Source: a virus. Taken from it: DNA of 38,104 bases. Positions 5,263 to 31,082 of the stretch are shown here, in pieces. Made by a program: the position numbers and the translations under genes. The notes below the pieces were generated by a model. That model searched no databases and was not told the DNA's origin. It worked only from the letters and a program-made list of their open reading frames with translations. The stretch is from positions 1-38,104 of the IMG/VR virus record IMGVR_UViG_3300045051_000100; one strand, written 5' to 3'. Position 1 is the stretch's first letter, and every line of letters starts with the position of its first letter.

Positions 5263-5523
5263 ATGACAGCAAACGAAAGAGAAAGGTTGGGTATGGTAGA
5301 AGAAAGAACTGCCCGAATAGAGCAAAAATTAGATTGTTTACCAGACACGCTTATCAAACGTCTTGATGACCGTTATCTCACCAAGGATGCTGCCGACAAA
5401 ATAAAAGAAGAAATCAATGAAAAGTATCTATCTACTGGACAAGCCAAATTAGTAGTAGGGGTTTTCTCGACCATTCTATTAGTTCTTGGAATCATTGATT
5501 GGTACTTGCAGTTCCGCAAATAA
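5263..5523 (+). CDS. XhlA-like small lysis-associated membrane protein
   Basis: 86 residues. The N-terminal 60 are amphipathic and charged (ERLGMVEERTARIEQKLDCL), followed by one C-terminal membrane span (LVVGVFSTILLVLGIIDWYL) and a basic tail. This matches the layout of XhlA/haemolysin-like proteins that accompany phage holins. It lies directly before the endolysin and holin in one transcription unit. Confidence 0.65.
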   Translation: MTANERERLGMVEERTARIEQKLDCLPDTLIKRLDDRYLTKDAADKIKEEINEKYLSTGQAKLVVGVFSTILLVLGIIDWYLQFRK

Positions 5524-5532
5524 GGAGGTCTT

Positions 5533-6357
5533 ATGAAACAACTAGTATGGCCGAACACAAACACACCTTACACAGGTGGCTGGTGCGAGAAGGGCATTGA
5601 GAACTCTGTCGGCACAACTGGCATCTATACCTCGGCTATGGCAGCATATAAGGCTGGTCTAGCACGTGGGTCTATCCACACTGAGGAACTGCCACTTGGG
5701 TTTTGCGCTCCTGTCCATCTCGACCTACCTAACGGCCCGAGAGACAGGAATGGAAACACTGAGGGTGATGTAGCCTTCAGATTAGCTGATGGTAAAGTCG
5801 CTGCCTGTGCTATGCCAGGCAACCACTCTAGCCTATACATTTACCCATCGCTCCAGGCCTACATTGATGACTACAGTAGGGCCAATAATGGTGCAGTTTA
5901 TCTTGGTTGGAATGAGTACGCAGGGAATATCAAAGTAATAGAAACGGAGGAAAATATGCCTAGTCTATTAGGTTTACAACAGGGCAGAATACTAGCTTGG
6001 GCCATTGGTGGCAGGAACGGTTTAGACGGTACACCAAACGCTCTTAACGGTGAAAGTGACAAAGATATAATCCCGAACAATGTCGGGACAGAAGCCGACG
6101 CAGCGATTGTCGATTGGTACAACTCACCCGACGGCCAGGAGTGGGCAAGAGTCCGTCTACCTGCTTTAGTTGAGAAAGCTGCTAAAGCCGAAGATTTACA
6201 AAATCAACTGACCACTCTACAGAACAACCCTATCGTCAAAGAAGTTCCTATCGAGAAGGTCATCACTAAAAATGTCCCAGCTAACCTTGATAGTTTAACC
6301 GTATGGGAGCTGATAAGCGCAGCCTGGGAAAAACTAACTAAGAAAAAGGAGCAATAA
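5533..6357 (+). CDS. Endolysin: papain-like (CHAP/NlpC-type) wall hydrolase with C-terminal domain
   Basis: 274 residues behind a perfect AAGGAGGT SD. The catalytic domain (about 1-140) opens with a GGWCEKGIEN motif, Cys18 being the likely nucleophile, and has the likely catalytic His98 in AMPGNHSSLYI. YLGWNEYAGNIKV closes the fold. This arrangement is typical of cysteine amidases/endopeptidases of the CHAP/NlpC group in phages of Gram-positive hosts. Residues 142-274 form a separate domain with a coiled-coil segment (LVEKAAKAEDLQNQLTTLQ), probably for wall binding or oligomerisation. GGAGG five bases before the in-frame ATG at 5956 suggests that domain is also made alone. Neighbours are the XhlA-like protein and the holin. 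Confidence 0.75.
   Translation: MKQLVWPNTNTPYTGGWCEKGIENSVGTTGIYTSAMAAYKAGLARGSIHTEELPLGFCAPVHLDLPNGPRDRNGNTEGDVAFRLADGKVAACAMPGNHSSLYIYPSLQAYIDDYSRANNGAVYLGWNEYAGNIKVIETEENMPSLLGLQQGRILAWAIGGRNGLDGTPNALNGESDKDIIPNNVGTEADAAIVDWYNSPDGQEWARVRLPALVEKAAKAEDLQNQLTTLQNNPIVKEVPIEKVITKNVPANLDSLTVWELISAAWEKLTKKKEQ
5946..5958 (+). promoter_or_regulatory. Internal ribosome binding site and in-frame start in the endolysin gene
   Basis: GGAGG at 5946-5950 stands five bases before ATG 5956, which is codon 142 of the endolysin and lies at its domain boundary. Starting here would give a 133-residue C-terminal protein. Known endolysins such as Lys170 and CD27L use the same arrangement to make free binding-domain subunits. 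Confidence 0.6.
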
Positions 6358-6358
6358 A

Positions 6359-6547
6359 ATGCAAAACAGATTTAAATCAAAGGTTCTTTGGGCCGCTGTG
6401 GTCGCACAGGTGGTAACACTGCTGATAACCTTCGGCGTTATCAACACTGGTCTAGGTACGCAGGTCAATGACGTTGTAGCTATTGTCCTACAGCTATTGG
6501 TCGCTATAGGTGTTCTAAACAACCCAACCGACCCGACGAGGTTATAA
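6359..6547 (+). CDS. Holin, phi-LC3-like family (two membrane spans)
   Basis: 62 residues. A short basic N-terminus (QNRFKSKVLW) is followed by two hydrophobic spans (AAVVAQVVTLLITFGVI and VVAIVLQLLVAIGVL) and then the NNPTDPTRL end. The 'G(V/I)xNxPTxxT' tail after the second span is characteristic of phi-LC3-type phage holins. It follows the endolysin stop by one base, consistent with a lysis cassette. Confidence 0.75.
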   Translation: MQNRFKSKVLWAAVVAQVVTLLITFGVINTGLGTQVNDVVAIVLQLLVAIGVLNNPTDPTRL

Positions 6548-13776: not shown

Positions 13777-13814
13777 CATACGGTTCATAAATAAACTAAA
13801 CAGGAGACACCACA

Positions 13815-14042
13815 ATGTCTAAAAAAGAAAAACAACCAAAAGTAGCAAAGACTATCAAAGTTAAGACACTATGCCTATGGGTATTCAACATAGTATTAGT
13901 AGCATCTGTTATCGGGGCAACTTGGTACGCAGCCTATAATACTGGTTACTCTCAAGGTAAGAACAACGCCAGCGAAACTGACGCTATTGTCCTTAGCCGT
14001 ATCAAAGAAGTCAAAGGCCTAATGGCCGAGTTAAAAAAGTAG
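13815..14042 (+). CDS. Small signal-anchor membrane protein; zero frame of a possible -1 frameshift
   Basis: 75 residues behind AGGAG. A basic N-terminus (KKEKQPKVAKTIKVK) precedes one membrane span (TLCLWVFNIVLVASVIGATW, about residues 19-40) and an outward helical stalk ending AELKK. The last codons are TTA AAA AAG TAG, so the canonical slippery heptamer A AAA AAG sits directly before the stop. A -1 slip would run into the transglycosylase frame, giving a 210-residue anchored enzyme. Confidence 0.7.
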   Translation: MSKKEKQPKVAKTIKVKTLCLWVFNIVLVASVIGATWYAAYNTGYSQGKNNASETDAIVLSRIKEVKGLMAELKK

Positions 14043-14065
14043 AGTTGTACCTAGCCGATACAACT
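14033..14065 (+). other. Candidate programmed -1 frameshift site
   Basis: The heptamer A AAA AAG (14033-14039) is in the correct phase for tandem slippage and is followed immediately by the zero-frame TAG (14040-14042). AGTTGT (14043-14048) and ACAACT (14060-14065) can form a 6-bp hairpin with an 11-base loop, though the spacer is short. The downstream frame is open through the site and lacks a good start of its own. Confidence 0.55.
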
Positions 14066-14446
14066 ACAGCGCCACAGGCTGAACTAAAAGACGAAGTGGC
14101 ACAAGTACCGTCTTTGAACCTTACAACGCAACACAGCGCACCTACTCAAGCCACAGGCGATATAGAAGCGATAGTACGTGCAGCAGCTAACAAGTATGGT
14201 ATCAGCGAGGACTATTTTGTAAGCGTAGCGAGATGTGAAAGCACACTTAACCCCACAGCAGTTAATCACAATTACTATGCTGGTGGTGGCAATCCAAGCG
14301 GACTATTCCAATACTTACCTGAAACTTGGTCACGTATATCATCAAGGGCTGGTGTATCGGGAGACGTATTTGACGCTACGATTAACGCAGAAGTTACCGG
14401 TTGGGCGTTCGCAAACGGATATTCTAACGAGTGGGCTTGTGCATAA
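14045..14446 (+). CDS. SLT-type lytic transglycosylase / lysozyme-like domain
   Basis: If translated alone it would start at TTG 14045, without an SD. Residues 1-38 are a Thr/Gln/Ala-rich linker. The domain follows: IEAIVRAAANKYGISEDYFVSVARCESTLNP, with catalytic Glu65 in CES, then GGNPSGLFQYLPETWSRI and a closing Trp-Ala-Cys. This is the Cys-bridged SLT domain common in actinobacterial-type muralytic proteins. It lies in the early region, far from the lysis cassette, so release of progeny is not its obvious job. It is probably produced as a -1 frameshift extension of the upstream membrane protein. Confidence 0.72.
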   Translation: MYLADTTTAPQAELKDEVAQVPSLNLTTQHSAPTQATGDIEAIVRAAANKYGISEDYFVSVARCESTLNPTAVNHNYYAGGGNPSGLFQYLPETWSRISSRAGVSGDVFDATINAEVTGWAFANGYSNEWACA

Positions 14447-15842: not shown

Positions 15843-16040
15843 ATGTCAAGCGTTGGAGAAGATATACAGGTAGAAATTAAACGTAATCAAGAGTTGAAGT
15901 CTATGTATGACGTCATTCCAGCTGGTTTTATCGGTGCGAGTATGATTCAGCTAGATATTGATGATGCAATTAAAGCACTCGCAAGCGGTGATATTATAGC
16001 AATACTAAAAGCGTATGAAAAGTTAAAGTCCAATGAATAA
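15843..16040 (+). CDS. Hypothetical helical protein, 65 residues
   Basis: AAGGAAAGGG lies upstream. Helical (VGEDIQVEIKRNQELKSMYDV, IDDAIKALASGDIIAILKAYEKL). Overlaps the next gene by 8 bases. Function unknown. Confidence 0.5.
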   Translation: MSSVGEDIQVEIKRNQELKSMYDVIPAGFIGASMIQLDIDDAIKALASGDIIAILKAYEKLKSNE

Positions 16041-16260
16041 ACCTAATACTAAACAAGACACCGAGATACAATATTGCCCTGTATTGACTTGTAGTTCAGT
16101 TCTATTGTTCCCAGAATACCCAATACCTTGTGGGAAGCACGGCACAGTGATGGTAAATTACTCAGAACTGCCACTAGAAAAACGAATATATATGAGAATT
16201 AAAGAGTTAGTATTGAAACGTCAATATGTTGTTAGAAAGGTAAAAACTAATGGTTACTAA
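16033..16260 (+). CDS. Cys-containing small protein with shared NKPNTKQDT start
   Basis: 75 residues. The first ten residues (NKPNTKQDT) are shared in wording with the genes at 16250, 17076 and 17498. CPVLTC and CGKHG could bind a metal. The C-terminus is basic (RIKELVLKRQYVVRKVK). Overlaps the next gene by 11 bases. Confidence 0.5.
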   Translation: MNKPNTKQDTEIQYCPVLTCSSVLLFPEYPIPCGKHGTVMVNYSELPLEKRIYMRIKELVLKRQYVVRKVKTNGY

Positions 16261-16277
16261 ACAAGACACAGGTAAAC
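16248..16277 (+). repeat. 30-base direct repeat at a gene start, copy 1
   Basis: Thirty bases covering TA plus the first nine codons of this gene (MVTKQDTGK) are identical to 17496-17525. It is one of a family of duplicated junction sequences in the early region. Confidence 0.8.
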
Positions 16278-16687
16278 TACTCAAACTAGGCGATAAGTTG
16301 TATAGACGGTCTAGAAAAGGTAGTCTCGGCAGACTATTCACCTATATAGTTACTGAAAAATGGGAAAGTGAAAAAGGCGTTACTTATATTGTCGAGTGCG
16401 AAAACTGCACTGACCACGATACCTGCATTGTTAGAGTGAAACCAGTAGACAACGATACGTTTAACTATCAATGTATGCTAGACGATGACGATTACCAGCC
16501 ACAATACTACTGGCATAATCAGGGTGCATACTACAGAACACTAGAAGACGCTGACCTTAACTACTATAAAGACCTATTCAAAACTACACTCGCTGAAGTA
16601 GAGCAAAAACGCAACGACATCCGCAACACCGAGCAAAGGTTAGACGAAATAAGCGACAAAATAAAAGAATTGGAGCATAAATTATGA
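16250..16687 (+). CDS. Hypothetical acidic protein with C-terminal coiled coil, 145 residues
   Basis: The N-terminus MVTKQDTGK is identical at DNA level to that of the gene at 17498. The middle is beta-rich with four Cys (YIVECENCTDHDTC). Residues 110-145 form a coiled coil (EVEQKRNDIRNTEQRLDEI, IKELEHKL). The IKELE ending is shared with neighbouring genes. No family recognised. Confidence 0.55.
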   Translation: MVTKQDTGKLLKLGDKLYRRSRKGSLGRLFTYIVTEKWESEKGVTYIVECENCTDHDTCIVRVKPVDNDTFNYQCMLDDDDYQPQYYWHNQGAYYRTLEDADLNYYKDLFKTTLAEVEQKRNDIRNTEQRLDEISDKIKELEHKL

Positions 16688-17073
16688 CCTCTAAACCTAA
16701 TACTCCAAAAGACCCTAATACAGACGATAAGAAAGACTACTCAACCTTACCTCGTAGCGATATGAAAACAATTAAGATTGCTTTTGATGTTGATGGCACT
16801 TTACGCTGTAATTGTAACGAAACCTGTGAAGATAGCAACCCAGATATTGTTACACTATTCAGAATACTGCGAAAGTTCAAAAATGTGGAGTTGTTTGTCT
16901 GGTCGGGTGGTGGTGCTAAATACGCCTATCGTTTCGCCCAACTCTACAAGTTGCCAGTAAAAGAAAATCACTGTATCAGCAAGTTCAGCGATTATCCTAA
17001 AATGGATATTGCCATAGATGATATTCAAGAAACGGCACTCGGAACATTAAACCTAATTGTGAGAGAAAAGTAG
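16684..17073 (+). CDS. HAD-superfamily phosphatase-like protein
   Basis: 129 residues. After a variable N-terminus (SKPNTPKDPNTDDKKDYS) come HAD motif I FDVDGTL with both Asp residues, motif II LFVWSGGG, a Lys in YKLPVKENH or SKFSDYPK as motif III, and motif IV DIAIDD. The cap is minimal, as in small C0-type HAD proteins. Phages use such enzymes as nucleotidases or end-healing phosphatases; the substrate is not evident. Confidence 0.75.
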   Translation: MTSKPNTPKDPNTDDKKDYSTLPRSDMKTIKIAFDVDGTLRCNCNETCEDSNPDIVTLFRILRKFKNVELFVWSGGGAKYAYRFAQLYKLPVKENHCISKFSDYPKMDIAIDDIQETALGTLNLIVREK

Positions 17074-17075
17074 TT

Positions 17076-17498
17076 ATGAATACAGACGAAAAACCTAATA
17101 CTAAACAAGACAAAAGGGTAATTTATTGCACCGCCTGTGAAAAAGATGTTGACCCTAGACTGACTGATGGTTCAGAGATTTATCCTCACCGCCCCGACCT
17201 TGCGAGTTTACCTTTTTGGATATGCGATACCTGTGGCAATTATGTCGGTTGTCACCATAATACCGATAACCCGACTAACCCCAAAGGTGTAATACCCACT
17301 AAAGAGATGCGTGATATTCGTGTAGCGATACATCGTTTACTTGACCCACTATGGCAATCTAAACGAATTAAACGTGGCAAAGCATACGCCTACATATCAC
17401 ACCGACTTGGTTATACCTATCATACTGGCGAATTAAAAAGCGTTGAAGAGGGTCGAGAGATATATAAAATCGTTCTTAAACTGAAAGAGGAATTGTAA
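17076..17498 (+). CDS. Zinc-ribbon protein resembling DUF3268
   Basis: 140 residues. After the shared EKPNTKQD start come YCTAC and WICDTCGNYVGCHHNTDNPTNPKGVI, then EMRDIRVAIHRLLDPLW and a KRGKAYAYISHRLGY helix. The order CxxC, CxxC-xYVGCH, RxxxHxxxDPLW is that of the DUF3268 zinc-finger family, found in phages and mobile elements. Biochemical role unknown; probably nucleic-acid binding. Confidence 0.7.
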   Translation: MNTDEKPNTKQDKRVIYCTACEKDVDPRLTDGSEIYPHRPDLASLPFWICDTCGNYVGCHHNTDNPTNPKGVIPTKEMRDIRVAIHRLLDPLWQSKRIKRGKAYAYISHRLGYTYHTGELKSVEEGREIYKIVLKLKEEL

Positions 17499-17525
17499 TG
17501 GTTACTAAACAAGACACAGGTAAAC
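17496..17525 (+). repeat. 30-base direct repeat at a gene start, copy 2
   Basis: Identical to 16248-16277. It provides the start codon and first nine codons (MVTKQDTGK) of an otherwise unrelated gene. Confidence 0.8.
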
Positions 17526-17761
17526 CAGCAGATAGGACATGTTCAATGTGTGGCAATACGCTACACGCTGAAGTTCACGGATATACTATAGATAAAGACT
17601 TTAATACAGTCCCGTGCTATATGTTCGGACACATCTGCCCTGCCCAGACTAAAGCGTATAATGACCGTATAAAGTCAATCAATCAAAATGCGAGTATGAA
17701 CGACGAGCAAAAGCGAAATGCTACCGAGATGGCTGGATATATGAATGCGTGGGGTAGTTAA
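17498..17761 (+). CDS. Small putative zinc-binding protein, 87 residues
   Basis: MVTKQDTGK start shared with 16250. CSMCG, then C and HIC later in the chain (VPCYMFGHICPAQ) could form a zinc site. The C-terminal half is helical. It starts on TAATG of the DUF3268-like gene. No family recognised. Confidence 0.5.
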   Translation: MVTKQDTGKPADRTCSMCGNTLHAEVHGYTIDKDFNTVPCYMFGHICPAQTKAYNDRIKSINQNASMNDEQKRNATEMAGYMNAWGS

Positions 17762-17763
17762 TT

Positions 17764-18051
17764 ATGACCACTCCAAAACCTAATACTCCAAAAGAAGAAG
17801 TAGAACAAATACTCAGTATGCTAAAACTGCACGAAATGGCTTTTGTTGATGATGGGTTAAATAGATATGGTTGGGATAACTCTGTTGCACAACAAATCCT
17901 AGACTGGCATAACAAAGCTATCGCTCAAGCAGAAAAGAAGGCACGAATAAACGAGGTCGAACGGTGTCGCACCGCATGGCATGGGTCAGATGATAAAGAG
18001 TTCGCATGGGTTATGAATACCCGACTTAAAGAGTTAGAGGAGCAGTTATGA
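17764..18051 (+). CDS. Hypothetical helical protein, 95 residues
   Basis: Starts TPKPNTPKEEVEQ, wording shared with the HAD-like gene at 16684, and ends RLKELEEQL, shared with the next gene. The middle is helical with several Trp residues. The final codons carry GAGGAG, the SD for the next gene. Looks like an exchangeable accessory gene. Confidence 0.5.
   Translation: MTTPKPNTPKEEVEQILSMLKLHEMAFVDDGLNRYGWDNSVAQQILDWHNKAIAQAEKKARINEVERCRTAWHGSDDKEFAWVMNTRLKELEEQL
18026..18042 (+). repeat. 17-base stop-junction repeat carrying an SD, copy 1
   Basis: TTAAAGAGTTAGAGGAG at the 3' end of one gene gives both the peptide KELEE and the SD of the next. It is identical at 18256-18272, and a shorter form (TTAAAGTTAGAGGAG) occurs near 18437-18451. 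Confidence 0.75.
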
Positions 18052-30626: not shown

Positions 30627-31082
30627 ATGCACACAATCCCACATACATTAGAAGCACGTAAGAAAATGAGTGCAACAAAAATGGGTAAACACTATTCTCC
30701 CAGGACGGAGTTTAAGGTTGGTCAAGTAGCTCCTATGAAGGGGAAGAAACGACCTGACTTAATTGGCAATACTCAAGGATTCACAAAGGGTCATATACCA
30801 TGGAATAAGGGTCTAGGTACTAAAAGTTCAGAAAACGAGAAAGCACGAAAGGTAAAATTAGCTCGTGATTGGCGTAAGTCAATTTTTGAAAGAGATGATT
30901 ATACTTGTAAAGAGTGTGGTGTCCGAGGAGGCACACTAAATGCTCATCATATTAAACCGTTCGCTATCTATCCAGAACTAAGATATGAGTTAGATAACGG
31001 CATAACACTATGTGAAGAATGTCACCGTTCTACAGACACTTGGGGTGTTCGTGGTACGAACGGCGTATTTTCACTAACATAA
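30627..31082 (+). CDS. NUMOD3/HNH homing endonuclease with structural-gene tail
   Basis: 151 residues. N-terminal NUMOD3-like piece (TLEARKKMSATKMGKH) and Lys/Gly-rich repeats (GFTKGHIPWNKGLGTK). HNH domain: FERDDYTCKECGVRGGTLNA, HHIKPFAIYPELRYEL, DNGITLCEECHRSTDTWG. The last ten residues RGTNGVFSLT do not belong to the HNH fold and match the C-terminus of the upstream structural gene. Different codons encode the two copies, which suggests insertion into the 3' end of that gene with a recoded replacement tail. Confidence 0.88.
   Translation: MHTIPHTLEARKKMSATKMGKHYSPRTEFKVGQVAPMKGKKRPDLIGNTQGFTKGHIPWNKGLGTKSSENEKARKVKLARDWRKSIFERDDYTCKECGVRGGTLNAHHIKPFAIYPELRYELDNGITLCEECHRSTDTWGVRGTNGVFSLT

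Follow-up and report, generated by a model that had tools for sequence, protein, structure and literature searches.

The window analysed here is the whole 38,104-nt stretch of a virus record (IMGVR_UViG_3300045051_000100, positions 1 to 38,104), and the cassette described below lies on its plus strand. At 13815–14042, an ATG-initiated open reading frame (ORF) encodes a protein of 75 residues, with a Shine-Dalgarno-like (SD) AGGAG at 13802–13806. The protein is predicted to contain a single transmembrane (TM) segment at about residues 18–36 and has a positively charged N-terminus; its gene is referred to here as the anchor ORF. The 3' end of this ORF reads GAG TTA AAA AAG TAG. Reading in the -1 frame meets no stop from 13997 onwards, through the putative slip site, until the one at 14444–14446, and both frames are open in the overlap at 13997–14042. 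Past the slip, the -1 frame (14036–14446) encodes a linker and an SLT domain. Joined at the slip, the two frames are predicted to yield a fusion of 210 residues, in which the junction peptide would read ..LKKVELYLADTTTAPQAELK. The original prediction had described this arrangement as a small membrane ORF ending in AAA AAG TAG, a -1 frame open across the site and encoding an SLT domain, and a product of 210 residues if the frames were joined; the sequence, the Pfam match and the predicted fusion length bear it out.

The SLT (GH23) domain lies at 14174–14395 and matches PF01464 with an E value of 5.9e-8 and 32.7 bits, compared with a gathering score of 21.3. Its CES catalytic motif is invariant in 16 aligned rows and aligns with the ES of MltC, and two cysteines are also invariant in the SLT alignment. 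An AlphaFold (AF2) model is confident over the SLT domain only, from about residue 41, and the best Foldseek matches to this model are MltE, Slt, MltF, MltC, and EtgA, with E values of 6e-3 and weaker and a probability of 1.00. Judged by Pfam match, motif, and predicted fold, the domain is a real SLT/GH23 lytic transglycosylase; cleavage of peptidoglycan is inferred. It shares the SLT domain, the fold, and the ES motif with MltE, MltC, Slt70, and EtgA, but differs from them in being minimal, in its two invariant cysteines, and in acquiring a TM anchor through a putative frameshift. The positively charged N-termini of the TM ORFs, the two invariant cysteines, and the peptidoglycan substrate together suggest that the domain faces the outside of the membrane, an inference from sequence features and hydropathy. 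As a separate observation, the SLT region of the window (14147–14446) looks mosaic, its N-terminal half being near that of the relative L002 and its C-terminal half (QYLPETW..GWAFANGY..EWAC) near those of L003 and L018.

Relatives and the history of the layout

The SLT sequence and alignments of it served as queries against viral contigs and gave the loci L002–L016 and L018–L094, some of them duplicates. The -1 layout was found in 15 relatives, namely 14 distinct viral contigs (L002, L004–L012, L014, L021, L072, and L092) and one bacterial contig, a prophage in a patescibacterial assembly (L107/L117). The TM ORFs of these relatives encode 61–78 residues with a single TM segment and start with ATG, and the SLT frame is always -1 to the TM ORF. 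The fusion proteins are mostly 30–55% identical between lineages, which indicates many separate lineages. Relatives were found through the SLT domain; the anchor ORF alone, used as a query against the collection, returned none. Among isolated phages no close relative was found, and the matches were only SLT domains of tape-measure and internal virion proteins, while a scan of genome contigs gave one weak match (L017), a different gene.

In five further loci (L003, L013, L015, L016, and L018), a TM segment or signal and the SLT domain are encoded together in a single in-frame ORF that has a start of its own, an arrangement which indicates that the anchor and SLT parts belong together. The two comparisons that had been proposed as checks, retention of both frames and the shift site among homologues and the existence of in-frame fusions, thus turned out as a frameshift would have it, the retained site being A_AAA in all 15 relatives.

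In a tree of the SLT domain, the -1 layout does not form one clade; 8 changes of layout are counted, 5 of them forced by starred branches. The domain is short and many forks remain open, and the history may be read either as several gains of the -1 layout or as several losses to in-frame forms. The distant members L021 and L072 group with the in-frame L025 outside the main clade and lack a pseudoknot of the common geometry. Given this placement, the -1 layout may have more than one origin.

The putative slip site and the predicted downstream pseudoknot

At every junction, the zero-frame AAA is preceded by an A (as TTA AAA, TCA AAA, or GTA AAA), so that an A_AAA tetramer is present in 16 of 16 members, at 14033–14036 in the window, and zero to five sense codons separate the slip AAA from the zero-frame stop. 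The original prediction had instead placed the shift on the heptamer A_AAA_AAG (14033–14039), which is indeed present in the window, in phase and before the stop, but is not conserved: L021 has A_AAA_AAC, L014 and L107 have the canonical U_UUA_AAA, and the others have the tetramer only. The heptamer was rejected as the conserved site. In the window, stem 1 of the structure described below begins 6 nt from the tetramer, as in the relatives, and only 3 nt from the heptamer; for this reason the tetramer is probably the working slip site there as well. A slip on either motif would yield the identical 210-residue product. No conserved internal SD was seen 5' of the slip when the member sequences were inspected by eye, without a formal count.

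In E. coli, Z_ZZN tetramers, A_AA.A included, shift only when a stimulator is present, in the order A_AA.G >> U_UU.Y > C_CC.Y > A_AA.A, and stimulatory structures usually begin 5–8 nt downstream (Sharma et al. 2014, PMC4066793). As A_AA.A is the weakest working tetramer in that organism, the yield from tetramer-only sites may, by analogy, be low.

A 6-bp hairpin had been foreseen just downstream of the site. The hairpin exists, but its stem is of 7 bp (AGTTGTA at 14043–14049 with TACAACT at 14059–14065) and forms stem 1 of a possible H-type pseudoknot, in which TAGCC in the loop (14052–14056) is predicted to pair with GGCTG at 14077–14081 as stem 2. An H-type pseudoknot can be formed in 13 of 16 members, 4–9 nt past the slip AAA, with stem 1 of 5–8 bp, stem 2 of 5–8 bp, and loop 3 of 9–13 nt. 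In a fixed-geometry search, all 12 of the members found first have it; this includes L002, for which the first pseudoknot scorer had picked other stems and which the fixed geometry aligned with the rest. L107, found after the geometry had been set, fits with a spacer of 7 and stems of 6 and 6. No knot within this geometry was found in L021, L092, and L072, in which other stems are present.

After dinucleotide shuffling of the first 12 members, a knot of any kind appears in 0.3–5% of shuffles, and in 11 of the 12 the observed score was not reached by any of 300 shuffles. The geometry was fixed after these 12 sequences had been seen, so this comparison is biased. Of 803 natural AAAA sites in the 13 knot-bearing members, 51 have a knot of any kind and 8 reach a score of 25.5 or more, as against 13 of 13 at the members' junctions. 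For the window alone, any knot occurs in 0.7% of its shuffles but, across the member sequences, at 6.4% of natural AAAA sites, and its predicted knot is by itself only modest evidence, becoming strong through conservation. The arms of each member's own stems are complementary in 13 of 13 cases; when arms are swapped between members, only 2 of 110 combinations for stem 1 and 2 of 90 for stem 2 pair fully. Arms that have been rewritten and yet remain complementary amount to compensatory change across many sequences, the strongest single item of evidence.

The same data bear on two explanations that do not involve the ribosome. RNA polymerase could gain or lose an A in the run and so produce an mRNA with both parts in frame, and the junction is an A-run, of six A in the window. 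Runs of 4–5 A are, however, short for transcriptional slippage, and most members have no more than that; in addition, constant spacing to an RNA pseudoknot downstream would be expected for a ribosome and not for a polymerase, which leaves this explanation with very little credit. The two frames could also result from a sequencing or assembly error, or from the decay of a former in-frame TM-SLT ORF, as homopolymers are error-prone and in-frame forms exist (L003, L013, L015, and L016). Against this, the -1 layout recurs in 16 sequences that are divergent, come from different samples, and differ in A-run length, the CES motif and the domain are intact, and the predicted pseudoknot is kept by compensatory change. 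Runs of 4–6 A in independent contigs dispose of the assembly error that had been named as a possible refutation; for the family, the comparison of sequences already refutes error or decay, and for the window it is barely conceivable.

Start codons and the reading of the cassette

In none of the 16 members does an ATG precede the SLT domain, and seven (L004, L005, L006, L008, L009, L010, and L092) have no ATG, GTG, or TTG ahead of it. Relatives with a strong SD and an ATG before the SLT domain would have spoken against the original prediction, and no ATG was found there in any relative with the -1 layout. In the window, the candidate starts are a TTG at 14045 near the junction, without an SD, which had been named beforehand as the best start of the domain, and a GTG at 14096 and a TTG at 14114 in the linker. 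It is therefore conceivable that the cassette consists of two genes, with the SLT domain started separately, either by reinitiation at TTG 14045, just past the TAG that closes the anchor ORF, or from the later GTG or TTG. The first of these codons lies three bases past the zero-frame stop, the others are available further downstream, and phages are known to use reinitiation near stop codons. The candidate starts nevertheless lack an SD, and TTG 14045 is not conserved. With no start codon of any kind in seven members and no ATG in any of the 16, independent initiation is ruled out as the family's general route to the enzyme. Nor would separate initiation account for the SLT frame being always -1, for the A_AAA site, or for the covarying pseudoknot, and it is considered highly improbable.

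Programmed -1 ribosomal frameshifting best explains the cassette, with a probability that we put at roughly 0.93; no product has been measured, and both the occurrence and the rate of the shift are inferred. This reading rests on the frames, the A_AAA site, the covarying pseudoknot, the lack of start codons, the SLT homology, and the in-frame fusions in relatives, and it agrees with what was originally proposed from the window alone. An open -1 coding frame, an in-phase slip motif, a conserved stimulator, and the absence of an independent start are all met, with the caveat that the window itself has TTG 14045.

In the proposed mechanism, most ribosomes would complete the 75-residue single-TM protein. 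At TTA AAA (A_AAA, 14033–14036), the downstream H-type pseudoknot would hold a fraction of them, on which tRNA-Lys would re-pair one base back and reading would continue in the -1 frame. The resulting 210-residue protein would share its cytoplasmic N-terminus and TM anchor with the short form and continue through a variable linker into the SLT lytic-transglycosylase domain. The anchor is inferred to assemble with a minority of enzyme-bearing copies.

Genomic setting, possible role, and known systems

In the phage members, the genes ahead of the cassette are Erf, NinG-like/HNH, or exonuclease genes, and RecT is also found among its neighbours. In the window, 5263–6547 is occupied by a holin and candidate lysis genes, apart from the cassette, which sits in the recombination module and not with a holin or endolysin, so that it does not qualify as part of a lysis cassette; its distance from the lysis genes had been noted at the outset. 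L003 and L018 carry separate endolysins. Taken together, the recombination genes beside the cassette, the lysis genes elsewhere, and these separate endolysins make an early, non-lysis role more likely, an inference from gene neighbours alone, in which the protein would remodel or guard the wall during infection. The same frameshift could instead serve an early-placed lysis effector, a signal-anchor endolysin whose short form acts as holin or inhibitor. The membrane-anchored muralytic domain would suit such a role, as would the small TM ORFs upstream of the in-frame SLT in L018 and L024; the lysis genes of the window, the endolysins of L003 and L018, and the neighbouring Erf, RecT, and NinG-like/HNH genes all speak against it, and we regard it as unlikely without dismissing it.

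Two further features of the window were observed. Six successive small ORFs at 16033–17800 begin with variants of a single leader peptide (KPNTKQD, VTKQDTGK, KPNTPK), as if one gene start had been repeatedly copied, and the ORFs at 1283–1861 and 30627–31082, with similar N-termini, resemble NUMOD/HNH homing endonucleases and both match L011:3447–3965.

On the patescibacterial contig (L117), a RecT-like gene, the TM/SLT cassette, and a CAP-domain gene are followed by a tRNA-Gly and then by a Mur ligase gene, the pattern that a prophage ending at a tRNA within a bacterial chromosome would show. The CAP-domain protein directly 3' of the frameshift cassette (L117:1572–2087, PF00188) is TM-anchored. 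A host among the Patescibacteria, possibly Saccharimonadia, is inferred from the phylum of L017 and the class of the genome G080, through which the prophage-bearing genome was reached, and applies directly only to the prophage (L107); the host of the window phage is unproven. A chromosomal DUF348-G5-SLT protein in the patescibacterial genome G080 (L095:1498–2664) has an SLT domain close to that of the window family (E 5e-48), which suggests, from sequence similarity, exchange between phage and host; unlike the -1 cassette, it is a single in-frame ORF in a cellular genome.

Among phage genes, -1 frameshifting is chiefly familiar from tail chaperones, together with a few capsid genes. The lambda gpG/gpGT pair resembles the window cassette in being a phage -1 frameshift with short and C-terminally extended forms, suggesting a set ratio, but these are tail assembly genes, whereas the cassette combines a TM anchor with an SLT domain and has no adjacent tail gene. 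Bacterial -1 frameshifting of the IS3 type (Z_ZZN or X_XXZ_ZZN) shares a slippery A-run, a nearby downstream pseudoknot, and a C-terminally extended minor product (PMC4066793). It serves a transposase, whereas the window cassette lies in a phage recombination module and would fuse an anchor to a peptidoglycan enzyme, and the conserved motif of the window family is the weak A_AA.A tetramer. A Lactococcus phage lysin from overlapping genes (Shearman 1994, cited in PMC10885494) appears there in a list of genes with a known frameshift; it is likewise a phage muralytic enzyme with overlapping frames, but it is a lysis gene and not a TM-anchored SLT protein in a recombination module. In the open-licence literature, we found no case of phage frameshifting with a lysozyme, endolysin, or transglycosylase, and no paper on Saccharibacteria and ribosomal frameshifting, both of which are weak evidence of absence. 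The mechanism is of a known kind, and its product, a TM-anchored wall enzyme, was not found described in that literature.

Gene callers can be expected to annotate the anchor and a shortened SLT domain as unrelated ORFs, which makes the family easy to miss. With its many natural pairs of slip site and pseudoknot, the family offers a ready set of cases on which to study the action of weak A_AAA tetramers, possibly on ribosomes of ultra-small bacteria. The leading but unproven idea of what the cassette is for is a ratio-controlled membrane complex that serves wall remodelling or exclusion. Tentatively, and at somewhat less than even odds, Patescibacteria phages would make early in infection a new kind of membrane complex whose stoichiometry is set by pseudoknot-driven -1 frameshifting, with many anchors and few copies bearing an outward peptidoglycan-cutting domain, for remodelling the wall or excluding other phages. 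Frameshifting in this family would control the amount of a potentially lethal wall enzyme that is attached to a membrane anchor.
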